A DNA stretch of 37,154 nt from a virus. The stretch lies in IMG/VR virus record IMGVR_UViG_3300030098_001818, positions 1-37,154 of that record. One strand, written 5' to 3'. Positions 88 through 37,154 of this stretch are shown in pieces. The notes under the pieces were generated by a model. That model did no database searches. It was not told the origin of the DNA and saw only the letters and a list, made by a program, of their open reading frames with translations. The position numbers were made by a program, and so were the translations under genes. Within the stretch, counting starts at the first letter, position 1. Each line of letters begins with the position of its first letter.

Positions 88-277
88 TTTTGCTCTTGAC
101 TTGATAAACGATCAGATAATGGAGATGGACAAAGCTATGCTACTTGATGAGTTATCATCAGGCTTCATCTCCAGGATCAAGCTAATGTTCCTAAGTACAT
201 ATCAACTTAGAGTTCTCATGCGAGAACAACTTTTACAAAACGATTACTACGATGAGGAGGTTAACGATGAATCTTAG
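80..277 (+). CDS. small hypothetical protein, present only in allele A
   Basis: The gene encodes 65 residues. The start at 80 is chosen because GGAGG stands 5 nt before the ATG, and the ATG overlaps the stop of the preceding gene (ATGAGTAA). The protein is helical and Leu/Met-rich, with an acidic C-terminus (YYDEEVNDES). I do not recognise the family. The corresponding place in the second copy of this segment (about 35,713-35,741) has no such gene, so it is an insertion or deletion difference between the two versions. It overlaps the next gene by 11 nt. Confidence 0.65.
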   Translation: MSNFALDLINDQIMEMDKAMLLDELSSGFISRIKLMFLSTYQLRVLMREQLLQNDYYDEEVNDES

Positions 278-719
278 TAAAGAACAAATTGATGTTAAAG
301 CAATTAGATACAATGAGTTGCTACACATCATAAAAGAATCAACTGAAGAGAAAGCAAGATTAGAACTTGAACTCAAAGATGAGTTTAAGGCTAGGTCTGA
401 AGAGGAATGGGCTAGTAGGCTAGTAGGGAACGAGATGGAAATAAAGAGGGGAAAGATAAATAAAACTGCAAGTGCGGATGATCTTCGGGCTGCGGTAGGG
501 GAGTTGGTAGATGAGAAAACACTTAACTCAATCATCAAACAAAAAGTTGTTGAGATAAAAGAAGTTCCTAATGAGAGGGAGATCAACAAACTTTTAACTG
601 AAGGTGGTGAGGTGGAAAAATCACGGCATCAAGGAGGGAGCTATGATAGGAAGACACATACTATTCCCAGAGGAATTATGGGAGAAATTATTGGCTTTAG
701 AAAAACTAACAGGCAATAA
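267..719 (+). CDS. coiled-coil early protein, Gp157-like in outline (allele A)
   Basis: The gene encodes 150 residues. The start at 267 has GGAGGTTAA immediately upstream. The N-terminal half is a charged predicted coiled coil. A conserved core follows (EEEWAS-LVGN, then DDLRAAVGE) and is shared with the protein at 36,164's upstream neighbour (35,742-36,167). The outline resembles siphovirus Gp157-type proteins encoded beside recombination genes, but that assignment is weak. Oddity: this copy has lost the stop used by its counterpart and reads 77 nt into the next gene, so its last 26 or so residues are translated from an alternative frame of that gene and have no equivalent in the other version. 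Confidence 0.7.
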   Translation: MNLSKEQIDVKAIRYNELLHIIKESTEEKARLELELKDEFKARSEEEWASRLVGNEMEIKRGKINKTASADDLRAAVGELVDEKTLNSIIKQKVVEIKEVPNEREINKLLTEGGEVEKSRHQGGSYDRKTHTIPRGIMGEIIGFRKTNRQ

Positions 720-795
720 ACCATCACAATTAGTCAGGCAATTCGTAATTGCTGGAGTAAAAGATAAGCTATCGGAGGTAAACAATGGCAAGTAA
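643..795 (+). CDS. ribbon-helix-helix (Arc/CopG-like) small protein (allele A)
   Basis: The gene encodes 50 residues. The start at 643 follows AGGAGGGAG at good spacing, and the same start is conserved in the second version at 36,164. A short N-terminal strand (RHILFPEE) is followed by two helices joined at TGNKPSQLVRQF. That is the pattern of RHH DNA-binding domains, which dimerise and place the strand in the major groove. It overlaps the following annealing-protein gene by 11 nt and is probably translationally coupled to it. It could regulate the recombination or replication genes, or be a structural DNA-binding partner. Target is unknown. Confidence 0.6.
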   Translation: MIGRHILFPEELWEKLLALEKLTGNKPSQLVRQFVIAGVKDKLSEVNNGK

Positions 796-1537
796 AGATA
801 TACATCCAGAAGATTTAGGAGAATTTATAGTTGAAACTAAATTGAAAAGATCCATGAAAGTAAAAGAAACTATGGTCGAGGACATAAAAGGTGGAGATTA
901 TGGACAAATTAAGGGAGTTACAGGAACTTTCCTGCTTATAAGTGGTGCAGCAAAACTTGCAGATGACTTTGGATACTATGCGGTATTAAAAGAACTTAAA
1001 GAAGAAGCACTTGGGGAAGGTAACCTAAAGATAACTACAACTCTTGATATCATGGATGTAGATGGGAAGCAGATTGGATCAGGTGTTGGAACTTGGGATA
1101 CAACTGAACGAGGGCTACCTGATCGTCAAAGAGGAATGGCCATCAGTTATAAAAGGGCTTTCGTGCTTGGAATTAGATACGCTTGTAATGCTTTTGGTTT
1201 GTTTTCTCAAGACGAGGACATTGTTAAAAGAAGTGCGGCGGGAGAAGTTGCTGGTGTATTCCAAAATACTCAAGGCTCAGCTTACCAACGAAACGATTCA
1301 CAAGATCAAGGTAAAGACCAATCATATAGCACTTTAAAACCTTGCAAAGAGGATGAAAATGGAGTTTGGATAGTTACTATGAACATGGGTTCAGGAGCTT
1401 GGCAAACCTACAAGGGTAAAGAGTTAATTGATGTTGTAAAAAATGATACTGCTTGGGCAAACTGGTGTTTAGAGAAATCTAACTTAGATCCAGATTGTAA
1501 AAAAGCTATTGTTGCTGCGGCAGAGGGTAAACTCTAA
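785..1537 (+). CDS. putative single-strand annealing / ssDNA-binding protein with ExoX-like C-terminal motif (allele A)
   Basis: The gene encodes 250 residues. The N-terminal two thirds have the pattern of phage single-strand annealing proteins of the Rad52/ERF-like type. There is a helix (ISGAAKLADDFG), strands (KITTTLDI-DGK-IGSGVGTWD) and a basic helix (RGMAISYKRAFVLGIRYAC) ending in FSQDEDI. After a Gln/Ser-rich linker (about 155-185) comes a 60-residue module with the pattern YKGKELIDVVKND-WANW-LE---LD, which resembles the C-terminal domain of exodeoxyribonuclease X-like proteins. It probably anneals or protects single-stranded DNA in phage recombination and replication. It overlaps the initiator gene by one base (TAATG). 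A diverged second version lies at 36,318-37,052. Confidence 0.65.
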   Translation: MASKDIHPEDLGEFIVETKLKRSMKVKETMVEDIKGGDYGQIKGVTGTFLLISGAAKLADDFGYYAVLKELKEEALGEGNLKITTTLDIMDVDGKQIGSGVGTWDTTERGLPDRQRGMAISYKRAFVLGIRYACNAFGLFSQDEDIVKRSAAGEVAGVFQNTQGSAYQRNDSQDQGKDQSYSTLKPCKEDENGVWIVTMNMGSGAWQTYKGKELIDVVKNDTAWANWCLEKSNLDPDCKKAIVAAAEGKL

Positions 1538-2295
1538 TGTCGTTTGCTCATCATGGATGGGCATTTAGATTAGACGGATTAAAGTCAGGGCAAAGACTCC
1601 TGTTGTTAGTGTTACTTGATTACGCTAGGGATGGTTGTCTTTGTGCTTGGCCCAGTCAGAAGATTCTAAGTCAGAAGACAGGGCTTGTTGAAAGACAGAT
1701 ACGAAGGTTGCTGCTACAACTCCAGGATCTGAAACTGATACAAATATCTAAGGCTCAAACAAAAGGTAAATATGTTGGTAATGTCTATCGGATAATTACT
1801 GGTGATAACTCAAGAGAACACGATGAAAATTGCATACAATTCGTAGGACATTTTTCTGATGACTCTAACCTAAACCATAGGACATCGGTGTCCGATGGAC
1901 ATGACAACGATAAAAACCAGAGGACATCTATGTCCGATGGATCAAGAAAAGAAAAAAGTAATACAAAAAAGAAAAGAATAATAAATCTTAATAAAAAGAA
2001 AGAAAGTATAAAGAAAGAAAAAGATTGGGTTCTGACACTAGAGAAAGTACCTGGACTAAATATTTCTGAAGATTGGATCGATATGCAGGAAAAAAGATTT
2101 TCTGATAACATTCTCCATAATTCAGCTTTGGCTTTTTTTACAGCAGTCGAGATTGAAAAGAAATACAAATACAAACAACCATTAACTGCATTTATAAATT
2201 GGTGCAAAAAGGAGGAACAACGAAATGGAAAAACTAAACTTCGATCACTTGAAGCGGGAAAGCCCACAGGGGAAGACATATTCGACAAGCTATGA
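1537..2295 (+). CDS. winged-helix replication initiator-like protein (lambda O-like role)
   Basis: The gene encodes 252 residues. The N-terminal about 90 residues form a winged helix-turn-helix (LVLLDYARDG-AWPSQKILSQKTGLVERQIRRLLLQLQDLKLI) of the type found in phage replication proteins. A Lys-rich linker (about 130-165) leads to a C-terminal region with an aromatic helix (AFINWCKKEEQ) like those of DnaD/DnaT-type proteins. The gene directly precedes a DnaC-like helicase loader, as lambda O precedes P. Its coding sequence contains iteron-like repeats at 1,879-1,941, a typical place for a phage origin. The start ATG overlaps the previous stop. The first 103 nt recur almost unchanged at 37,052-37,154. 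Confidence 0.7.
   Translation: MSFAHHGWAFRLDGLKSGQRLLLLVLLDYARDGCLCAWPSQKILSQKTGLVERQIRRLLLQLQDLKLIQISKAQTKGKYVGNVYRIITGDNSREHDENCIQFVGHFSDDSNLNHRTSVSDGHDNDKNQRTSMSDGSRKEKSNTKKKRIINLNKKKESIKKEKDWVLTLEKVPGLNISEDWIDMQEKRFSDNILHNSALAFFTAVEIEKKYKYKQPLTAFINWCKKEEQRNGKTKLRSLEAGKPTGEDIFDKL
1844..2030. other. candidate replication origin: iterons plus A-rich tract inside the initiator gene
   Basis: Two 21-bp repeats, AGGACATCggtGTCCGATGGA (1,879-1,899) and AGGACATCtatGTCCGATGGA (1,921-1,941), differ at two bases and start exactly 42 bp apart, four helical turns. Each contains an inverted pair GGACA/TGTCC. A partial site TAGGACAT lies at 1,844-1,851. A strongly A-rich stretch (about 1,942-2,030) follows at once. 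This mirrors the lambda origin, where iterons and an AT-rich tract lie inside gene O. Function is inferred from position and layout. Confidence 0.55.
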
Positions 2296-3028
2296 TCGTA
2301 CACAACTGATCTCATGCAGAACTTGTGACGATATGAAGTGGCTTAGGCCAAGAGAAGTAGAAAAACAGAATGTGAAATACATTCCATGTCCTGATTGCAA
2401 AGAAGAAAAACCACAGGATTTAGCAAAGATAAAGTATGACCTTGCTGGTTTTGAGGGTCTAAACAGGGCTTTATACACGTTTTCAGACTACAACCCTGAT
2501 AAACAGACATCTGTTGAAGCCAGGACACAATGTAGGAACGCAAAGAACATTGTTGGTAGATGGATTCAGAAGAAGACTCCATACCTAATTATGCTTACAG
2601 GACCAACAGGAACAGGTAAAACTCACTTGTGCGAATCGGCAGCCAACGAACTTATCAATGCGGGTATGGATGTTTGGTATGTGACTGGCACAATCTTTGG
2701 TCACAGGATGAGAGATATGGACAATGTTCACAAATTCAAAGATGCTTTGCTAACCAAAGAAATGTTAATCCTTGATGAAATGTATGTTTCTTGGGATAAT
2801 AACGATTACCTTAGAACAACTCTTCAAGAGGTCATAGTACACCGATCAGACAGATTCATGCCAACACTCGTAGCAGGAAACATCAAAGATAACCAAGCAA
2901 AGAACCCAGAAGCCGCACTATCAAACATAGTAGGGCAAAGGGTAATGAGTAGAGTATTGTCTAAACAAGGAGAGAAAGCAGAAGGTAAACTGGTATCAAT
3001 GTGGAAGGCTTATGATGTTAGGAGATAA
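2225..3028 (+). CDS. DnaC/IstB-like AAA+ ATPase, putative helicase loader
   Basis: The gene encodes 267 residues. The start at 2,225 follows GGAGG by 9 nt and lies 71 nt inside the end of the initiator gene. An N-terminal zinc-ribbon-like segment has C31-x2-C34 and C55-x2-C58. The ATPase domain has Walker A GPTGTGKTH at 126-134, Walker B MLILDE at 180-185, a sensor-like segment LVAGNI at 215-220, and a late basic region (RVMSRVL). This order is typical of DnaC and phage loaders that place the host replicative helicase on origin DNA. With the preceding winged-helix gene it forms an O/P-like replication pair. No phage helicase or polymerase is seen, so host enzymes are presumably recruited. Confidence 0.85.
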   Translation: MEKLNFDHLKRESPQGKTYSTSYDRTQLISCRTCDDMKWLRPREVEKQNVKYIPCPDCKEEKPQDLAKIKYDLAGFEGLNRALYTFSDYNPDKQTSVEARTQCRNAKNIVGRWIQKKTPYLIMLTGPTGTGKTHLCESAANELINAGMDVWYVTGTIFGHRMRDMDNVHKFKDALLTKEMLILDEMYVSWDNNDYLRTTLQEVIVHRSDRFMPTLVAGNIKDNQAKNPEAALSNIVGQRVMSRVLSKQGEKAEGKLVSMWKAYDVRR

Positions 3029-3644
3029 ATTTAGCATTATAAATGACGATTGCATGAACATACTACCCAAGTACGAAGATAATTACTTTGACTTGGCTAT
3101 TGTAGACCCTCCTTATGGATTAGGAGATAAATTAAAACAAGGTGGCAATACTGGTGTTGTAACTTTTAAAGATTTATACAATGGATTTGATGAAGCTATA
3201 CCTGATAAAAAATATTTTGATGAACTTTTTAGGGTAAGTAAAAATCAAATAATATGGGGTGCTAATTATTTTTTAGATTATTTAGGTAACACAAGGGGTA
3301 TTATTTGTTGGGATAAAAATTTAGGACACCCAAGAAATTTTAGCCATTTTGAATTTGCTTGGACATCGTTTGATTGTATTGCTAGAAAAATATCATATAG
3401 TTCTAATAGTGGCGACAGAATACACCCTACACAAAAACCTATTAAGTTATACAGATGGCTACTAGAAACCTACGCAGAACCAACAGATAAAATATTAGAT
3501 ACCCATTTAGGGTCAGGTTCAATAGCCATAGCCTGTCATTATTTTGACACGGAAGAATTTGTCGGTATTGAGATTCATAAAGAATATTACGATATGGCTA
3601 ATAAAAGAATACAAGAAGAAACTAAACAAATTAAATTATTATGA
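3012..3644 (+). CDS. DNA N6-adenine/N4-cytosine methyltransferase
   Basis: The gene encodes 210 residues (209 if the second of two adjacent ATGs is used). The catalytic motif DPPY is at 32-35, HPTQKP at 138-143, and the S-adenosylmethionine-binding motif appears as DTHLGSGS at 163-170, where F-x-G-S-G is usual. Catalytic motif first and SAM motif last is the beta arrangement of amino-methyltransferases. It likely methylates phage DNA, for protection from host restriction or for marking DNA. It overlaps the loader gene by 17 nt and the next small gene by ATGA. The gene is visibly more AT-rich than its neighbours, which may point to separate acquisition. No partner endonuclease is present. Confidence 0.88.
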   Translation: MMLGDKFSIINDDCMNILPKYEDNYFDLAIVDPPYGLGDKLKQGGNTGVVTFKDLYNGFDEAIPDKKYFDELFRVSKNQIIWGANYFLDYLGNTRGIICWDKNLGHPRNFSHFEFAWTSFDCIARKISYSSNSGDRIHPTQKPIKLYRWLLETYAEPTDKILDTHLGSGSIAIACHYFDTEEFVGIEIHKEYYDMANKRIQEETKQIKLL

Positions 3645-3799
3645 AAGTAGAAGATAAAAACAAACACATACATAAATTTATATTTCCAGCACCGAATGGC
3701 CCTGTGTCTATTGGCAAGTGTAAGTGCGGTGAGAAGAAAGAGGGATTCAATAGCATGGATGGTAGGTTCGGTAGTGTATGGAGAAAAAAGAATGGATAG
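3641..3799 (+). CDS. small protein with a single CxC pair
   Basis: The gene encodes 52 residues, and its ATG overlaps the methylase stop (ATGA). The sequence has an N-terminal His/Lys segment, the stretch FPAPNGPVSIGKCKCGEKKEG, split here as FPAPNGP then VSIGKCKCG, and a basic C-terminus. The CKCG pair suggests half of a zinc-binding site, perhaps completed by the N-terminal histidines or by dimerisation. Short proteins of this pattern occur in many phage early operons, with no known function. It overlaps the next gene's ATG (ATGGATAG). Confidence 0.6.
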   Translation: MKVEDKNKHIHKFIFPAPNGPVSIGKCKCGEKKEGFNSMDGRFGSVWRKKNG

Positions 3800-4202
3800 A
3801 AAAAAATTAACACAAAAAATTAACCCAATATTAAAAAAGTTTGGCGTTAAATTATACATTCATCATAAACCAAAAAAACAAAAGAAAAGAGTTGACAGAA
3901 ATACAACACCAATACAGAGAGAAAATTTTGAAGAAAAAAAAATTCGTGTAAGTTTTACAGAAAGAGCAGCCAAGTTAAGAACTGTTTCCAAAGTATCCAC
4001 AAAAACTGAACCACTTGTAAAAGATGGAGTTGTTATGAGAAGACCAGAAGATGACATAGAAATTGCAGTTAAAGACAATGGTTTTCTACCAATTAAATAT
4101 TCTTCTACAACACCTTCTAAAACAGTAGAAGATTTAAAAAAAATAATTGCAAAAAATCAAAGAGAGCTTTCAAAAAAACTAAAAGAGGAAAGTCATGGAT
4201 AG
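3792..4202 (+). CDS. basic hypothetical early protein
   Basis: The gene encodes 136 residues with the start at 3,792, which overlaps the previous stop by 8 nt. An in-frame upstream ATG at 3,696 is possible but would overlap the previous gene heavily. The protein is Lys-rich, with a basic N-terminal part (KKPKKQKKR at about 26-34), a middle section with RAAKLRTVSK, and a C-terminal helix (VEDLKKIIAKNQRELSKKLKEE). It probably binds nucleic acid, judging only from charge. I do not recognise the family. It overlaps the resolvase-like gene by 8 nt. Confidence 0.55.
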   Translation: MDRKKLTQKINPILKKFGVKLYIHHKPKKQKKRVDRNTTPIQRENFEEKKIRVSFTERAAKLRTVSKVSTKTEPLVKDGVVMRRPEDDIEIAVKDNGFLPIKYSSTTPSKTVEDLKKIIAKNQRELSKKLKEESHG

Positions 4203-4578
4203 ATCAACATGGAAAAACTGGGAGAGATGGTGGAGAGAAAAGCTGGGTGGAGATAAGGTGAACGCAAAACGAATACCAGTAACTGGCAGACATTCAGGAG
4301 ATGTGCCTGATATAGAAACAATCAAGTTTGCTGGTGAAGTAAAAGCTGGTAGCGTTGTTAGTTCTAGGACATTAAAAGCCGTAGATCAAGCCAGGAAGGC
4401 TGCTAATGCTACGGGCAAAATACCAATAGTATGTCAGACTCATAAGGTAAACAAAAATAAAGCAGTTCATTTAGTAACTATGGAAGCTGATATATTTTTA
4501 GATATTACAAAACACATTAGAAAAGAAGAGATGAGAATCAAGAGAAGTCTTGACTCAAGTAAAGATTTAGGAATATGA
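4195..4578 (+). CDS. PD-(D/E)xK nuclease, Holliday-junction-resolvase-like
   Basis: The gene encodes 127 residues. The N-terminal helix (WKNWERWWREKLGG) is followed by the strand RIPVTGRHSGDVPDIE and then FAGEVKAG. The residues D36/D39, E48 and K50 match the PD-(D/E)xK catalytic pattern of archaeal Hjc-like and phage resolvase-like nucleases. A following helix (AVDQARKAANATGKIP) and strand complete the small fold. The likely role is resolving branched DNA before packaging, or processing recombination intermediates. This fits the neighbouring annealing protein. It is coupled to the next gene by ATGA. Confidence 0.7.
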   Translation: MDRSTWKNWERWWREKLGGDKVNAKRIPVTGRHSGDVPDIETIKFAGEVKAGSVVSSRTLKAVDQARKAANATGKIPIVCQTHKVNKNKAVHLVTMEADIFLDITKHIRKEEMRIKRSLDSSKDLGI

Positions 4579-4853
4579 AAGACGAAGAAAAATATGAATT
4601 AGGGCCATGCCCATTTTGTGGAGGAGATACTCTTGAGTTTACAAGGCCAGTTGCTGCTTATGACAATTCTCGTACTTCACAAGAAAAGGGAGTTGAATTG
4701 ATTGCTCGTGATACTCACAAAATCAGTAGTCAACTTAGATTTTTAGGAACTGCCTGCACAGCAGATGATTGTGGAATAGGAATGATTACAGGAAGAGGGC
4801 AGTTTGAGCCAAGACATCCAGACAACATTAGGTACCCAGCAAATGAAAATTGA
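4575..4853 (+). CDS. Lar-like restriction-alleviation zinc-ribbon protein
   Basis: The gene encodes 92 residues. It begins with the CPFCGG knuckle (C12, C15) typical of Lar-type proteins. The second pair is C61 and C66 (ACTADDCGIGM), with a somewhat longer central insert than usual. Known Lar proteins relieve host type I restriction by modulating host methylation. Many phage proteins carry this knuckle without proof of that role. The neighbouring methyltransferase makes an anti-restriction cluster plausible. It overlaps the next gene by 11 nt. Confidence 0.6.
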   Translation: MKDEEKYELGPCPFCGGDTLEFTRPVAAYDNSRTSQEKGVELIARDTHKISSQLRFLGTACTADDCGIGMITGRGQFEPRHPDNIRYPANEN

Positions 4854-5100
4854 AGAGAAGAAAGAATTTATTAGTCAACACAACCCTGAAGCGTTACTTG
4901 CTGATGGCTTTGAAGATGCTTTGATTGGTGTAGGGCAGCAGTTTAATAAAACTCTGGCAGTCTATGATAGGCAGAAATGTATAGAGATACTCATGGAAAG
5001 AGATGGGATGTCTGACGAAGAAGCAGTAGAGTATTTTGAATACAATGTAACTGGGGCTTGGGTTGGTGAATATACACCGATATTTTTGGAGACATTCTAA
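4843..5100 (+). CDS. conserved phage protein of unknown function
   Basis: The gene encodes 85 residues with the ATG at 4,843. A TTG 13 codons upstream is also in frame. The pattern DGFEDALIGVGQQFNK, then YDRQKCIEILM, then EEAVEYFEYNVTGAWVGE-TPIF is that of a small, very widespread phage protein family with no assigned function that I know. It is the last gene of this rightward operon. A terminator follows about 190 nt downstream, after a short promoter-bearing intergenic region. Confidence 0.75.
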   Translation: MKIEEKKEFISQHNPEALLADGFEDALIGVGQQFNKTLAVYDRQKCIEILMERDGMSDEEAVEYFEYNVTGAWVGEYTPIFLETF

Positions 5101-5160
5101 AATGACATTCTATTTTGGGAAATTTTGGGAAACTCTCCATTCTCGGTATGGACAACTTTA

Positions 5161-5189
5161 TTTACATGAATTACATTCTAGTATAAAAT
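5161..5189 (+). promoter_or_regulatory. sigma70-like promoter for the 5.2-kb small RNA
   Basis: TTTACA (5,161-5,166), a 17-bp spacer and TAAAAT (5,184-5,189). A 7-bp inverted pair, TGGACAA at 5,149-5,155 and TTGTCCA at 5,193-5,199, brackets the promoter and could be an operator. Predicted transcription starts near 5,196. Confidence 0.45.
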
Positions 5190-5195
5190 TATTTG

Positions 5196-5299
5196 TCCAC
5201 ACTACTTGAATTAACCTCCAAGTTAGTGGATTGTTTGTGAAGACTCCTGGCTTCCTTTGTTAACCTCCAAGTTAATTACTGGTCGGGAGTCTTTTTTTA
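5196..5299 (+). ncRNA. candidate phage small RNA, antisense to early-gene leaders
   Basis: The region between gene ends holds no ORF but has a promoter (5,161-5,189) and an intrinsic terminator (5,241-5,298), predicting an RNA of about 100 nt. It carries TTAACCTCCAAGTTA twice (5,211-5,225 and 5,260-5,274). Each copy can form a hairpin TTAAC/GTTA(A) with CTCCAA in the loop. TTAACCTCCA is the exact complement of the TGGAGGTTAA Shine-Dalgarno leaders at 33,157, 33,286 and 33,980. Bases 5,230-5,239 (ATTGTTTGTG) complement the leader motif CACAAACAAT. Bases 5,230-5,247 complement 34,361-34,379 with one bulged base, spanning the cleavage site of the third hammerhead. A minus-strand leader with no gene after it is the alternative. 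Confidence 0.5.
5241..5298 (+). terminator. intrinsic terminator with a long loop
   Basis: AGACTCC (5,241-5,247) pairs with GGAGTCT (5,286-5,292), extended by A5240-T5293, and is followed by a T run ending at 5,298. The 38-nt loop contains a second small hairpin, TTAAC-CTCCAA-GTTAA (5,260-5,275). It ends the rightward operon and the candidate small RNA. Confidence 0.75.
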
Positions 5300-5420
5300 C
5301 GATTGTTTTTTTACTTGTACAAAAATTGCTCAAACCTAAAACACCCCTGACCTGTGAAAAAAAGAACAGGTAAACCCCAAATAGTCCATGTTTTTACCCT
5401 TTATTTTCGGCTGTTATGGA

Positions 5421-5448
5421 TTGACAATGGACTGCATTAGTATATAAT
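5421..5448 (+). promoter_or_regulatory. consensus sigma70 promoter upstream of the 5,510 gene
   Basis: Both hexamers are perfect: TTGACA (5,421-5,426), a 16-bp spacer and TATAAT (5,443-5,448). It would be read by unmodified host RNA polymerase immediately after infection. It lies downstream of the 5.3-kb terminator, so the 5,510 gene is a separate transcription unit. Confidence 0.8.
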
Positions 5449-5449
5449 C

Positions 5450-5499
5450 GATTGTAGAGATTTTAATTTTTTAATCTCAAAACAAACAATCTACGGAGG
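5450..5499 (+). promoter_or_regulatory. structured 5' leader of the 5,510 gene
   Basis: The leader begins near the predicted start site. GATTGT (5,450-5,455) can pair with ACAATC (5,486-5,491), and inside it GAGATT (5,457-5,462) pairs with AATCTC (5,473-5,478). The 3' arm overlaps the recurring leader motif ACAAACAAT (5,482-5,490), which is followed by GGAGG (5,495-5,499). It is the only copy of this leader outside the 32-35 kb early region. It has no hammerhead core. Confidence 0.45.
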
Positions 5500-5509
5500 T
5501 AGAAATAAA

Positions 5510-6022
5510 ATGAGTTTAGAAATAATAGAAAAAAAGAATTATACCGAAGTGTGGATGTGGAGGAGTACATTCAAAACAATGTATAAAGCTAAAGATTCAA
5601 TATGGCTAGATAAAGGAGACAGGATTCACATTCCAACAGGCAGTTTTAGATACAAAAAATATATTGCTTACAATGAGGAACAATTAATTAGAAAATCAAG
5701 TATCAAAACAATTTATGGATCTAATAAACCAATAAATGGATTATTGTCAGAAATGGATAACCAAAAAGAATACTATGCTTTAGATACATTGTTTGATATG
5801 GAGCATGAACTTGGATTATATCCTTGTAATGCTAGTGATTACGAATGGGGTAGAGATAAATGTTATGGGTTAAGATTTAGCGTTAAAAATTTAATTGGTT
5901 TTACAGAAATATCAGATGGAAGTATTTGTCCGATATGTGATGAACGATATATTTGGGGTCATGGAGATTTTTTTCCTGATAAAGAATATTTAGAAGAAAG
6001 AATGGTTGATAAGAATTTGTAG
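5510..6022 (+). CDS. hypothetical early protein with CPIC motif
   Basis: The gene encodes 170 residues. The ATG follows GGAGG by 10 nt and a perfect-consensus promoter. The sequence is rich in Tyr, Trp and charged residues: an N-terminal strand-rich part (YTEVWMWRSTFKTMYKAKDS), a middle helical segment, and a C-terminal C-P-I-C pair in SICPICDERYIWGHGD, possibly half of a metal site with nearby Cys/His. I recognise no family. Its isolated position, own strong promoter and early-type leader suggest an immediate-early host-interaction gene. It converges on the late operon, with only 7 nt between stop codons. Confidence 0.7.
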   Translation: MSLEIIEKKNYTEVWMWRSTFKTMYKAKDSIWLDKGDRIHIPTGSFRYKKYIAYNEEQLIRKSSIKTIYGSNKPINGLLSEMDNQKEYYALDTLFDMEHELGLYPCNASDYEWGRDKCYGLRFSVKNLIGFTEISDGSICPICDERYIWGHGDFFPDKEYLEERMVDKNL

Positions 6023-32670: not shown

Positions 32671-32726
32671 TGCTAGGTTGGATAATGTGTATTATCCCTG
32701 ATGATTCGGAAACGATGAAACCAGCA
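32671..32726 (+). ncRNA. hammerhead ribozyme 1 (type III)
   Basis: Stem III is TGCT(A)GG (32,671-32,677) with CCAGCA (32,721-32,726), one bulged A, closed by U32678-A32720. The cleavage triplet GUU ends at 32,679, so cleavage falls between 32,679 and 32,680. Stem I is GGATAAT/ATTATCC (32,680-32,697) with loop GTGT. The core CTGATGA is 32,698-32,704. Stem II is three pairs capped by a GAAA tetraloop (32,705-32,716) with a U-U mismatch at the 10.1/11.1 position. The core GAAA is 32,717-32,720. All invariant core bases are present. Cleavage would leave nearly the whole ribozyme on the downstream mRNA's 5' end. Confidence 0.82.
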
Positions 32727-32757
32727 GCAAACAAACAATTTCATGGAGGTAAAAAAC

Positions 32758-33081
32758 ATGGAAAACAATAAAAAAGAAAACAACATTTTGCTTGATAGCA
32801 GCGGGGATTTATTCGGTTTAAAACCTGATGATGTTTTTAATGCTCATTCTGAAAACTTAAATGTAATGAGGTTTAGAATTGACAACCCAAGAAGAGTAGA
32901 ATTATCACAAGCAAGATATCATACAGATTTTGAAGTATTCATTTCTGATGACACTGAGCAACTAGAAAAACTTATTAAGTGGGCTCAGACTTTGCAAAAA
33001 GGGGCTAAGAAACACCTTAAGAAATTAAATAAAAAACTTGAGCAGCAAAAAAAACTTGAAGAGTTTGAAGCAAAATTATAG
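32758..33081 (+). CDS. early protein with C-terminal coiled coil, unknown function
   Basis: The gene encodes 107 residues. The start at 32,758 follows TGGAGGTAAAAAAC. An in-frame ATG at 32,743 lies in the Shine-Dalgarno itself and is unlikely. The N-terminal half contains LLDSSGDLFGLKPDDVFNAH, and a strand region follows (MRFRIDNPRRVELSQARYHT). The C-terminus is a basic-acidic coiled coil (LKKLNKKLEQQKKLEEFEAK). It is not recognised. It sits between ribozymes 1 and 2, whose second stem I begins at the last base of its stop codon. Confidence 0.65.
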   Translation: MENNKKENNILLDSSGDLFGLKPDDVFNAHSENLNVMRFRIDNPRRVELSQARYHTDFEVFISDDTEQLEKLIKWAQTLQKGAKKHLKKLNKKLEQQKKLEEFEAKL

Positions 33082-33139
33082 TGTTTCTGATGAGGTTTTA
33101 ATAACTGAAATAGCCCGATTTTTTCGGGCTATAAAACAC
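33081..33139 (+). ncRNA. hammerhead ribozyme 2 (type I)
   Basis: Stem I is GTGTTT (33,081-33,086) with AAACAC (33,134-33,139), six perfect pairs. The core CTGATGA is 33,087-33,093. Stem II is GGTT/AACT (33,094-33,106), closed by a G-U pair. The core GAAA is 33,107-33,110. Stem III is TAGCCCGA/TCGGGCTA (33,111-33,118 and 33,124-33,131) with a T loop, closed by A33110-U33132. The cleavage triplet is AUA, so cleavage falls between 33,133 and 33,134. It starts on the last base of the upstream stop codon. Cleavage would place ACAAACAATTT at the new 5' end of the next mRNA. Confidence 0.85.
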
Positions 33140-33170
33140 AAACAATTTATAAAAAATGGAGGTTAAAAAA

Positions 33171-33245
33171 ATGGATAATGAAATAATAAAAATCATTACT
33201 AGCCCGACTGAATCGGACTTAATTAACGAAATACTTTACAAATAA
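33171..33245 (+). CDS. 24-residue early microprotein
   Basis: ATG follows GGAGGTTAAAAAA, the strong leader, and opens MDNEIIKIITSPTESDLINE ending ILYK. It has a good ribosome-binding site and lies between ribozyme 2 and a promoter. Its last codons overlap the -35 box of the next promoter. It may be a true microprotein or a leader peptide. Nothing matches it that I know. Confidence 0.45.
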   Translation: MDNEIIKIITSPTESDLINEILYK

Positions 33246-33268
33246 TTAAATGGATTGGTATAATCCAT
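33235..33268 (+). promoter_or_regulatory. early promoter with palindromic -10
   Basis: TTTACA (33,235-33,240), an 18-bp spacer and TATAAT (33,259-33,264). The -10 lies inside the perfect palindrome ATGGATT-ggtat-AATCCAT (33,250-33,268), an obvious operator position. The leader motif follows directly. Confidence 0.5.
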
Positions 33269-33300
33269 AAATGCAAACAATTTCATGGAGGTTAAAAATC

Positions 33301-33975
33301 ATGAACACACAAGAAAAAATATACGAAATGCTTACAGAGTCAACAGGAACCCACTTTTTAGATAGTGGCGGCTCAAATAATAGACACTGGCAGCAAAACC
33401 AAAAAAAGACACTTGAAGATTTTCAAAATGAAAAACATTTTCAAGTTGAAAAAAACGAATACGGCGACAATCAAGTTGAATGGTTATTAAATATTTCGTT
33501 GTTTCATCATCTAAGCGATTCCCTAACTTATGATGAACAAGAAACCCACAATTTAAATAGTTTCTTAGAATCTGAAGGGCTTGCTAGTGATATGGCTGGA
33601 ATTGATGAATATGTTGCATCTGGATATTGTTCAGGCGGTCAAGAATTAAAAACGATCAATTCATACAATGAAGAGTGCGATTTATCGCAAACTATTCAAT
33701 TTCATTATGTAGGCGATATTTACGAATCGGACACAATATATCTACAAATTCACGGCGGTGCGGATGTACGGGGCGGTTACACGGATATCGTAGCGTTTAA
33801 AGTTGATTGGGATTCGCTGCTAAATTGGTACTATTCAGAAGAGGATATTTTGGAGTTTTTCGTACCATGTTTAATATGCAACGATGAGAATTGTATAGAC
33901 AAGAACGGCACACACATAACAAACAACATGGTTACGGGCTTCGGATTACCAAATTTACAAACAATTAAAAACTAA
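33301..33975 (+). CDS. conserved early phage protein of unknown function
   Basis: The gene encodes 224 residues from the ATG at 33,301, which follows TGGAGGTTAAAAATC. A longer in-frame start at 33,271 lies in the leader and is rejected. The N-terminal pattern ESTGTHFLDSGGSNNRHWQQ and the later LQIHGGADVRGGYTDIVAFK are hallmarks of a phage protein family seen in many early regions, with no known function. A CLICNDENC segment near the C-terminus is a possible metal site. It is the largest protein of this early block. Its last codons overlap the next gene's leader motif. Confidence 0.75.
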   Translation: MNTQEKIYEMLTESTGTHFLDSGGSNNRHWQQNQKKTLEDFQNEKHFQVEKNEYGDNQVEWLLNISLFHHLSDSLTYDEQETHNLNSFLESEGLASDMAGIDEYVASGYCSGGQELKTINSYNEECDLSQTIQFHYVGDIYESDTIYLQIHGGADVRGGYTDIVAFKVDWDSLLNWYYSEEDILEFFVPCLICNDENCIDKNGTHITNNMVTGFGLPNLQTIKN

Positions 33976-33993
33976 TTCATGGAGGTTAAAAAC

Positions 33994-34287
33994 ATGAAAG
34001 TAATAATTAAAAATCCAACAGGTGAAAAAATAAAAAAACTTGTTGATGACGGAGTCCAAGTACATTGGGCAAATGAGAGATACATAGTAAAAAAAGACAC
34101 AATAGGCAACTACAATGTAATTGATGAATATAATCATAATTGTATTGGCTTGACAGATAAGACAGGGAATTTATTAAATACCAATCAAAATTATTTTTAT
34201 AGTGTTTATGACTATTTAATTACAAGTCATGAAAATAAAATGATGAAAAAATACGGATGTAATTTAAATTCCATAACATCTAAATAA
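33994..34287 (+). CDS. small early protein, unknown function
   Basis: The gene encodes 97 residues from 33,994 after TGGAGGTTAAAAAC. The first 15 nt of the longer reading belong to the leader. The sequence alternates strands and turns (MKVIIKNPTGEKIKKLVDDG, VHWANERYIVKKDTIGNYNV) with an aromatic helix near the end (YFYSVYDYLITSHENKMMKK). No family recognised. Ribozyme 3 lies 28 nt downstream. Confidence 0.65.
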   Translation: MKVIIKNPTGEKIKKLVDDGVQVHWANERYIVKKDTIGNYNVIDEYNHNCIGLTDKTGNLLNTNQNYFYSVYDYLITSHENKMMKKYGCNLNSITSK

Positions 34288-34315: not shown

Positions 34316-34372
34316 GTGTAACTGATGAAGGCTAATGCTAGAAACTCCCTGATATTTCAGGGAGTCTTACAC
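34316..34372 (+). ncRNA. hammerhead ribozyme 3 (type I)
   Basis: Stem I is GTGTAA (34,316-34,321) with TTACAC (34,367-34,372), six perfect pairs. The core CTGATGA is 34,322-34,328. Stem II is weak: GGC/GCT with one G-U pair and an A-A mismatch at 10.1/11.1 (34,329-34,340). The core GAAA is 34,341-34,344. Stem III is CTCCCTGA/TCAGGGAG (34,345-34,364), eight pairs around TATT, closed by A34344-U34365. The cleavage triplet is the classical GUC, so cleavage falls between 34,366 and 34,367. Stems I and III differ in sequence from ribozyme 2 but keep pairing. The preceding TTATAGTGT is shared with ribozyme 2. Confidence 0.83.
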
Positions 34373-34392
34373 AAACAATAAATGGAGGTCTT

Positions 34393-34608
34393 ATGACTAA
34401 AAAAAGTCAAATAACAATACCTGATTTAATTGCTCTTACTTGCGATATATCAGATGAGATTCTGAGGTTATCTTTTAAGGGTGATATAGATGAGGAACAT
34501 GAAAACGGCAGCGTATCTTACACAGATGCGGCTCAAGATGTTTTCAATCAAATAAATGATCGCATAGAGGGAGTTATTCTTACTTATATGCAAAAATTGG
34601 AGGATTAA
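34393..34608 (+). CDS. small acidic early protein
   Basis: The gene encodes 71 residues. The ATG follows TGGAGGTCTT just behind ribozyme 3. The protein is acidic and helical (ITIPDLIALTCDISDEILRL, AAQDVFNQINDRIEGVILTY). Possibly a small inhibitor or adaptor; no family recognised. The following gene starts 3 nt after its stop, with GGAGG inside its last codons. Confidence 0.65.
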   Translation: MTKKSQITIPDLIALTCDISDEILRLSFKGDIDEEHENGSVSYTDAAQDVFNQINDRIEGVILTYMQKLED

Positions 34609-35436: not shown

Positions 35437-35723
35437 TGACAAAACAAGAATTAATAACATACTTTGGGGAAAGAATTGGCAAAGATGTTAAAAGTAAAAA
35501 CATTATAAAAAAAGGTAATTGGATATTTTATCAAGATCCCTCATGGATACATGACTTTCCTAATGATGTTGAGGTATACAATTTTCCTTGTGGTAGCGTT
35601 GCTGAATGTTTCACAGAAATAAAAAAAGATAAATCGCCATTTAATAAGAACTTGGATCAAAAAGAACTAGATGAAATACTAGAAGATCTTGATAACAACT
35701 GGCATGAATTTAAAAACAATTAA
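35436..35723 (+). CDS. small early protein (complete version; its tail recurs at the window start)
   Basis: The gene encodes 95 residues. The N-terminal helix (KQELITYFGERIGKDVK) is followed by strands (KGNWIFYQDPSWIHDFPNDV) and an acidic C-terminal helix (LDQKELDEILEDLDNNWHEF). Bases 35,658-35,713 are identical to 1-56. No family recognised. This gene marks where the two versions of the early segment begin to be shared. Confidence 0.65.
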   Translation: MTKQELITYFGERIGKDVKSKNIIKKGNWIFYQDPSWIHDFPNDVEVYNFPCGSVAECFTEIKKDKSPFNKNLDQKELDEILEDLDNNWHEFKNN

Positions 35724-35741
35724 AAAGAAAGAGGTTAAATA

Positions 35742-36167
35742 ATGAGTCTAAGTAGACAAGAAATAGATACTCTTGCTAACAGGTTGGAGACAATCAATAG
35801 CATGATGAAATCAATGAAAGAAGATAAAGCAAAAATAGAAAGAGAGATTGAGATTGAGTTTGAGGAACGATCTGAGAACACTTGGGCCAGTGAGTTAGTA
35901 GGTAACAACATGATTCTAAAAAGAGGATCAACTAAAGTTATTAAACCTGATGACTTACGAGCAGCAATAGGGGAGTGGGTAGAACCTGAAGAACTAGACA
36001 GATGTATTGTTCCTGAACATACAGAAATAAAAACTATACCTGAAAAGGTAAGTGTAGCTGAAGTTAATAAAATTCATAAACAAGGCGGGGAGTTGGCAAA
36101 TCAAATAGATAAAGCAACTAAAAAAATTACATCATCAATAAAAGTTTCAAAGAAGGAGGAACTATGA
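35742..36167 (+). CDS. coiled-coil early protein, Gp157-like in outline (allele B)
   Basis: The gene encodes 141 residues. An N-terminal coiled coil (NRLETINSMMKSMKEDKAKI) precedes the conserved core NTWASELVGNNMILKRG and DDLRAAIGEWVEPEEL. Unlike the version at 267-719, it ends cleanly with an ATGA overlap onto the RHH gene after a Lys/Thr-rich tail. It is the more regular of the two versions. Resemblance to Gp157-type proteins is suggestive only. Confidence 0.7.
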   Translation: MSLSRQEIDTLANRLETINSMMKSMKEDKAKIEREIEIEFEERSENTWASELVGNNMILKRGSTKVIKPDDLRAAIGEWVEPEELDRCIVPEHTEIKTIPEKVSVAEVNKIHKQGGELANQIDKATKKITSSIKVSKKEEL

Positions 36168-36328
36168 TAGGAAGACACATACTATTCCCAGAAGAAATAT
36201 GGGAAGATTTAAAAGCAATAGCCAAGCTAACAGGTAATTCACCATCAGCTTTAGTAAGACAATTCGTTGTTGATGGGGTTACACGAACACTACACCATGC
36301 AAATAAGGAGGTAAAGAATGGCAAGTAA
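36164..36328 (+). CDS. ribbon-helix-helix small protein (allele B)
   Basis: The gene encodes 54 residues. GGAGGAACT precedes the ATG, which overlaps the previous stop. The strand RHILFPEE and the turn TGNSPSALVRQFV match the RHH pattern of the version at 643-795. The first 31 bases of the two genes are identical and they then diverge. It overlaps the annealing-protein gene by 11 nt exactly as in the other version. Confidence 0.6.
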   Translation: MIGRHILFPEEIWEDLKAIAKLTGNSPSALVRQFVVDGVTRTLHHANKEVKNGK

Positions 36329-37052
36329 AGATATACATCCAGAAGATTTAGGAGAATTTATAGTTGAAAGTAAATTACAACGATCTAACAAGCTAAAAAA
36401 CTCAATGAAAGAAGGAGTTGACTTTGGCAAGATTGAGGGCAAAACATCAGATTTCCTTTGGGTAGGTGGTGCAGCAAAGTTAGCAGAAGAGTTTGGGCTT
36501 AACGCAACACTAAAAGAAATCAACGAAGAGCCGTTTGGTGAAGGTTGCAAGATTACAATTATATTGGACATCGTTGAGTCTGATGGAAAGGTTGTAGGTA
36601 CGGGAGTTGGTACTTGGGATAATGGAGAGATACTTGGCAACATGAAAGGTGCTAGGCAAAGAGGATTGGCTATGGCATACAAGAGGGCTTATGTCTTGGG
36701 TATTAGGTATGCAAGCAATAGCTTTGGTATCTTTAGTCAGGATGATGATGTTGTAAGGTATGCAGACGAACCACAACAACAATCTGAATGGAAACCAAAT
36801 CAGATTCAAGAACAACCAAAAAGACAATACGATCCTGATGCACCATTTACACCATGTAAAGAGGATGAAAATGGAGTTTGGAAAGTTGTAATTGGTGGTA
36901 AAGAGGGAACACCCTGGTCTGAATACAAAGGTAAAGAACTTATAGATGTTGTTAAGAATGATGTTGGTTGGGCAAATTGGGTATTGGCTAGACCAAACTT
37001 AGATTCATCTTGTAGAGAAGCCATTGAAAATGCAGCCACAGGTAAGCTCTAA
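36318..37052 (+). CDS. putative single-strand annealing / ssDNA-binding protein (allele B)
   Basis: The gene encodes 244 residues. It has the same architecture as the protein at 785-1,537: a helix (VGGAAKLAEEFG), strands (CKITIILDI-DGK-VGTGVGTWD), a basic helix (RGLAMAYKRAYVLGIRYASN), FSQDDDV, a Gln-rich linker and the C-terminal ExoX-like module (YKGKELIDVVKND-GWANW). Identity to the first version is high in the first 17 residues and in the C-terminal module, and lower between. The linker is unrelated. The last base overlaps the initiator start (TAATG). Confidence 0.65.
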   Translation: MASKDIHPEDLGEFIVESKLQRSNKLKNSMKEGVDFGKIEGKTSDFLWVGGAAKLAEEFGLNATLKEINEEPFGEGCKITIILDIVESDGKVVGTGVGTWDNGEILGNMKGARQRGLAMAYKRAYVLGIRYASNSFGIFSQDDDVVRYADEPQQQSEWKPNQIQEQPKRQYDPDAPFTPCKEDENGVWKVVIGGKEGTPWSEYKGKELIDVVKNDVGWANWVLARPNLDSSCREAIENAATGKL

Positions 37053-37154
37053 TGTCGTTTGCTCATCATGGATGGGCATTTAGATTAGACGGATTAAAGT
37101 CAGGACAAAGGCTTCTGTTGTTAGTGTTACTTGATTACGCTAGGGATGGTTGTC
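37052..37154 (+). CDS. start of replication initiator, truncated by window end
   Basis: There are 34 complete codons, identical in protein sequence to the first 34 residues of the gene at 1,537 apart from silent DNA changes. The last 40 bases are identical between the two. This is where the window closes on itself, and the remainder of the gene is that at 1,640-2,295 if the molecule is circular. Confidence 0.8.
   Translation, partial: MSFAHHGWAFRLDGLKSGQRLLLLVLLDYARDGC

Follow-up and report, generated by a model that had tools for sequence, protein, structure and literature searches.

A conserved stretch behind the early operon of a phage (positions 5196–5299, + strand) looks like a small RNA gene, and its RNA, carrying sequences complementary to a shared early leader motif and to the Shine-Dalgarno (SD) sequence, would act in trans to repress early genes in bulk, a reading to which we give a probability of just under 0.6. 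At the sequence level, we find the locus conserved, complementary to the leaders of several early genes with a preference for early over late genes, and accompanied by three hammerhead ribozyme folds (ribozymes 1, 2 and 3) upstream of such leaders. Expression of the small RNA, ribozyme cleavage, repression and its timing are what we infer from these features.

The analysed DNA (the window) comprises the 37,154 bases of IMG/VR record IMGVR_UViG_3300030098_001818 and has a GC content of 0.37; the source of the ribozymes and the candidate small RNA is a marine phage. The + strand genes occupy 252–6022 and the stretch between 32432 and the right end, with a replication initiator, a DnaC-like loader, a DNA methylase and a resolvase-like protein among their products, and the − strand genes (31595–6185) include the terminase. 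On this gene content, the + strand set would be early and the − strand set late. Many relatives of the phage are present in IMG/VR. INPHARED yielded no near relative with the small RNA, the early region or a large structural gene as probes, and only distant matches to the terminase (<60% identity); probing with the gene 5510 protein recovered no relatives. Positions 35658–37154 are a diverged repeat of 1–1639 (68% over ~1 kb, 94% over the first 78 bases), relatives have a single copy at the place of this end repeat, and the contig probably goes round a circular map, joining two strains.

A candidate small RNA and its predicted targets

The elements of the small RNA locus are as follows:

5116–5132, + strand: repeat TGGGAAATTTTGGGAAA, preceding the small RNA and shared by the relatives G002, G041 and G032; a possible operator
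5161–5189, + strand: promoter-like TTTACA-17-TAAAAT of the small RNA, with similar hexamers in G002 and G036
5196–5299, + strand: proposed small RNA of ~100 nt after the early operon, proposed from the promoter-like site, the terminator and conservation
5211–5238, + strand: 28-nt block of anti-SD UUAACCUCC, 10-nt linker and anti-leader AUUGUUUGU, invariant in three phages
5240–5299, + strand: intrinsic terminator AAGACUCC...GGGAGUCUUUUUUU, with a second C[CUCCAA]G hairpin around 5262–5274

By sequence, the locus has its own promoter and an intrinsic terminator, and the promoter-like hexamers, the terminator and the block are kept on the + strand in G002 (L268) and G036 (L266); it is because of these two signals and the 28-nt block invariant in three phages that the locus looks like a small RNA gene. 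In G002, ~100 nt are near-identical to the window RNA, and G036 retains the block (UUAACCUCCAAGUUAGUGGAUUGUUUGU), lacks the second CCUCC copy and carries a rebuilt terminator whose stem survives (AGGCUCCUG/CAGGAGUCU). The window terminator is omitted by the built-in terminator scan owing to its long loop, and Rfam returned nothing for the small RNA. The predicted fold consists of a hairpin, a free AUUGUUUGUG and the terminator, with the anti-SD UUAACCUCC partly within a hairpin loop and the anti-leader single-stranded. We also considered the minus strand of 5196–5299 as a leader and rejected it: the motif and an SD are present, but there is no conserved ORF, and a T-run follows the hairpin on the + strand only. 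Distant relatives carry other units with anti-SD sequences at the same locus (G041/G032, G017/G028, and G020 with L250 and L251), and the C[CUCCAA]G hairpin recurs on an unrelated stem in G020, L250 and L251, as the terminator loop.

The order of the recognition elements in the small RNA (anti-SD, linker, anti-leader) is the antiparallel counterpart of a leader, ACAAACAAU-spacer-GGAGGUUAA, that precedes several early genes. The leaders without a ribozyme entry below and the motif behind ribozyme 3 are located as follows:

5482–5500, + strand: leader of gene 5510–6022, a strong predicted target, with a perfect sigma-70-type promoter at 5421–5448
33273–33290, + strand: leader of gene 33301–33975 (GCAAACAAT...GGAGG), adjoined by a promoter-like site at 33235–33264; no ribozyme
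33957–33985, + strand: leader of gene 33994–34287, among the two strongest predicted targets
34371–34379, + strand: copy of the shared early leader motif ACAAACAAU, shortly before the SD GGAGG of the next gene
34393–34608, + strand: putative early gene of 71 aa behind ribozyme 3, with no PHROG match

When pairing of the small RNA was predicted for 46 start regions of the window, the best 12 all belonged to + strand early genes, with top energies such as −29.3 kcal/mol (z −7.2) and −28.6 kcal/mol (z −8.0, gene 33994–34287), where the shuffles behind the z-scores preserved base composition only. Early genes paired better than late ones in the window (Mann-Whitney, p = 2e-4), in both close relatives with modest p-values (0.027 in G002, 0.047 in G036), and in the distant relatives G041 (p = 0.012) and G017 (p = 0.006); for the G020 small RNA, early and late genes did not differ significantly (p = 0.66). 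When 1500 random 29-mers of the window genome were paired with the early start regions, none equalled the small RNA (−18.55 against a mean of −10.35). The recognition bases are accessible in the predicted fold, conserved, and complementary to several targets beyond chance.

The small-RNA-like units of the distant relatives have anti-SD sequences that match their own leaders, as in G017, where the anti-SD UUCUCCUUUCUU fits the leader AAGAAAGGAGAA. In a cross table, partly driven by base composition and the general form of the SD, the RNAs of the window, G036, G002, G041 and G017 favoured leaders from their own clade or one similar to it, and that of G020 did not. The leader motif and the anti-leader are missing together in the distant relatives examined; within the close clade, the anti-leader half shows no covariation because both sides are invariant. 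In a sister clade (G001, G003, G005 and G035; L269–L278, L305–L306), a GC-rich hairpin, (AT)CGTTTTAGTAATAA and an SD stand before 7–9 genes per genome, and no exact complement to the CGTTTTAGT leaders of these four genomes was found.

Hammerhead-type ribozymes upstream of some early genes

Three hammerheads lie in the early region:

32672–32725, + strand: ribozyme 1, type III, GUU cleavage site, U·U at 10.1/11.1, then the leader motif at 32731–32739
33081–33139, + strand: ribozyme 2, type I, AUA cleavage site, then the leader motif at 33138–33146
34316–34372, + strand: ribozyme 3, type I hammerhead-like, GUC cleavage site, identified from core bases, scan, homologs and covariation

In an architecture scan, a score of at least 17 was reached in none of 200 dinucleotide-shuffled windows, and the real window has three such hits, ribozymes 1, 2 and 3. 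In ribozyme 3, stem I pairs 34316–34321 with 34367–34372 (GUGUAA/UUACAC, 6 bp), the core is formed by CUGAUGA (34322–34328) and GAA (34341–34343), and stem III (34344–34365) has 9 bp including A15.1-U16.1 (34344/34365). C17 is 34366, and the predicted cut falls between 34366 and 34367. Every hammerhead core base of the type I test is present (C3 U4 G5 A6 N7 G8 A9, G12 A13 A14, A15.1-U16.1 and H17). Stem II (34329–34340) has A·A at 10.1/11.1, followed by G·U, G-C and C-G and a UAAU loop. The first-pass annotation had read a hammerhead with a GUC site here and called its stem II weak, with three pairs and an A·A mismatch, and both statements agree with the letters, the core and the paired stems I and III. 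At the base of stem II, the N10.1-N11.1 pair is absent (A·A in ribozyme 3, C·A in relatives and in other phages), and ribozyme 3 does not reach the Rfam RF00163 gathering score; we describe it as a variant in stem II expected to function like a hammerhead and not as a member of the consensus.

In the ribozyme 3 homologs of L014, L022 and L079/L266, C·A replaces A·A at 10.1/11.1. A search pattern specifying no more than the core and this stem II, with stems I and III left free, CUGAUGA[A/C]GGC-N3-6-GCUAGAAA, found 18 viral loci, most of which are complete type I hammerheads upstream of genes, the downstream genes differing between phages; two further loci lie behind tRNA-Gln. In GTDB genomes, examined as a source of C·A or A·A stem II, the single match did not resemble a ribozyme. 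In the phage elements, both stems I and III covary. Of the aligned cells, 91% are paired as against 30–36% when slid by one column, and by helix the figures are 95% for helix I and 100% for helix III; the percentages paired are biased upwards by an alignment with loops cut out and rows limited to those accepted by the pairing scan. The stronger point is the two-sided changes in the alignment of ten sequences, which number 40 cells as against 12.7 in shuffles and occur at six of six helix I pairs and four of five helix III pairs. Since the mismatched stem II recurs as C·A in other phages with covarying stems I and III, the weak stem II of ribozyme 3 looks like a natural variant and not decay, and a further reading, doubtful though possible, would make the recurrent C10.1·A11.1 stem II a distinct natural subclass of phage hammerheads.

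That ribozyme 3 is instead a decayed, inactive hammerhead of which only the hairpin is used, for example as 3'-end protection for the upstream mRNA, is unlikely. Such decay would fit its A·A mismatch, at a position where the consulted parts of a published survey state that mispairs were normally rejected (PMC3088659), as well as the missing Rfam match; it is at odds with a C·A stem II that persists across several phage lineages in which stems I and III covary. A mismatch at 10.1/11.1 is, moreover, common in phage hammerheads in the form of U·U, which is natural and reported active in the same parts of the survey (PMC3088659), with 77 of 83 pattern matches lying in full hammerheads, 63 of them type III; those parts hold no description of C·A or A·A. 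As for Rfam, it gave no match for any of the phage hammerheads tested, and because even those with a regular stem II fail, the Rfam hammerhead model is insensitive to phage hammerheads.

Around the other two ribozymes, the relatives of ribozyme 1 in L014 and L020 have a GUC site and a regular stem II (GUUC/GAAC, with G-C at 10.1/11.1), a full compensatory change, and the predicted cut of ribozyme 2 lies between 33133 and 33134. Behind ribozyme 2 is a 24-codon ORF (33171–33245), missing from the ORF list owing to its size, whose start region is kept in L014 and L020. Elsewhere, unrelated phages (L144, L185, L199 and pattern-found loci) carry several type I/III hammerheads, each just upstream of a start codon, and similar short leaders repeat within one phage. 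In another phage group (L013, L040, L050, L061, L063, L083 and L090), a type I hammerhead stands before a conserved gene starting ATGTTTACACG/AAG. A hammerhead-like element with a very short stem III lies directly behind tRNA-Gln in L311 (3755, − strand) and L322 (6549, − strand), where it might form the tRNA 3' end; the tRNA arrays of both also contain tmRNA.

Proposed mechanism and rival readings

The + strand of 5196–5299 would give rise to a small RNA displaying the anti-SD UUAACCUCC and the anti-leader AUUGUUUGUG, and pairing with 5'-ACAAACAAU...GGAGGUUAA of early mRNAs would block ribosome binding on many early genes. Because the locus closes the early operon and its RNA prefers early genes, this bulk shut-off would probably occur when early expression should end. 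The 5' ends of the leaders may arise in two ways, by a transcription start close to the motif (the promoters at 33235–33264 and 5421–5448, with a hairpin between the latter and the motif) or by hammerhead self-cleavage; in the ribozyme leaders and at the 33235 promoter, the mRNA would begin a few bases before the motif. Cleavage of ribozyme 3 would leave 5'-OH-UUACACAAACAAU... before gene 34393 and release the motif's CAC from stem I. It is a tentative extension, doubtful though possible, that the two parts make up one early switch in which self-cleavage produces uniform short leaders and a single small RNA reads leader and SD and shuts the set off; as this CAC is held in stem I until the cut, cleavage would then gate the access of the small RNA to its target. 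With its anti-SD loops, the small RNA could also regulate host mRNAs.

The first-pass annotation had assigned the RNA of 5196–5299 a narrower role, as an antisense regulator that blocks self-cleavage of ribozyme 3 by pairing across the stem III arm, the cut site and the stem I arm, and we consider this very improbable. The complementarity on which it was built is real: 34361–34379 and 5230–5247 form 18 pairs with one bulge, the best match in the whole genome, and 300 shuffled genomes gave at most 16 pairs. Ten of these pairs, however, are the complement of the leader motif repeated before several early genes, and the other eight (GGAGUCUU/AAGACUCC) also serve as the 5' arm of the terminator stem. 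In cofolding, the terminator stem retains AAGACUCC and the 9-bp stem III retains GGAGUCUU, and only the leader pairing forms, with a gain of −11.0 kcal/mol for ribozyme 3 as against −19.7 for the cleaved ribozyme 2 leader; full-length duplex energies (−36, −42) were set aside because they mostly swap the terminator and stem III arms. Three of the six base pairs of stem I fall within the leader pairing, and cofolding with uncut ribozyme 3 RNA perturbs this stem; a weak effect on the uncut molecule is therefore possible. In G036, the one relative examined with both partners, the match falls to 10 pairs, the leader motif alone, and the pairing with the stem III arm, the cut site and the stem I arm is not conserved there; G002 has a near-identical small RNA and no ribozyme 3 detectable at relaxed settings. 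Other early leaders are predicted to pair better than that of the ribozyme 3 gene, which ranks 11 of 46, and cleavage in cis during transcription should normally precede an encounter in trans. Ribozyme 3 would then be one of several suppliers of the target leader and not the target, its eight-base extra match reflecting the terminator stem. A further suggestion of the same annotation, that an antisense RNA could cover the downstream leader, fits a plausible RNA at 5196–5299 complementary to the leader motif.

It is improbable that 5196–5299 is nothing more than the early operon's 3' end with its terminator and that the complementarity reflects an antisense copy of a DNA motif, ACAAACAAT, of a phage DNA-binding regulator. 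The location directly after the last early gene, the repeat element upstream of the locus and the motif just downstream of the promoter-like sites at 33235 and 5421 would all suit a DNA motif, but before genes the motif is in sense orientation and precedes the SD, whereas here anti-SD and anti-motif stand in co-linear antisense order; the leaders of ribozymes 2 and 3 have no adjacent promoter-like site, and the 28-nt block is invariant in three phages. Quite improbable as a full account is that ACAAACAAU serves as an RNA-protein or ribosome (S1-like) contact aiding translation of short unstructured leaders, with the 5230 match as a by-product. A-rich leaders do follow hammerheads in unrelated phages, e.g. 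AAAACAAACAAAAC in L314 and L321, but a contact of this kind leaves a conserved antisense block with promoter-like and terminator sequences unexplained, as well as the early bias of the pairing, and it is compatible with the small RNA.

Comparison with known systems

The purpose of phage hammerheads has been open since their discovery there. If the cleaved leaders are common targets of a small RNA, the ribozymes would gain a concrete, testable role, standardising mRNA 5' ends so that one RNA controls many genes; the stem II variants also suggest that phages have a class of hammerheads, mismatched in stem II, which escapes the Rfam models.

Trans-encoded base-pairing small RNAs with C-rich anti-SD loops are known from Staphylococcus aureus. 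Like the window RNA, they have CUCC in a hairpin loop facing the Shine-Dalgarno sequence and an intrinsic terminator; the window RNA differs in being phage-encoded and in bearing an additional element that would recognise a phage-wide leader motif. On the ribozyme side, the core bases, the GUC site, the three stems and the type I/III topology are common to the window and to Rfam Hammerhead_1 (RF00163) and Hammerhead_3 (RF00008), models that match neither the window ribozymes nor other phage hammerheads. In the consulted parts of the survey of Perreault et al. 2011 (PMC3088659), several prophage hammerheads likewise lie upstream of or flank single phage genes, HHphage being 13 nt upstream of a start codon, and processing of long phage transcripts is proposed; unlike here, those parts describe neither a cognate antisense RNA nor a leader motif shared downstream of the cut. 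Our literature search, with most subscription journals outside it, found no coupling of phage hammerheads with phage small RNAs, which is no proof of novelty. The antisense RNAs c4 of P1/P7 and sas of P22 likewise act on genes of their own phage (PMC12197685); c4 and sas act on one operon or gene, whereas the window RNA would act on many early leaders.
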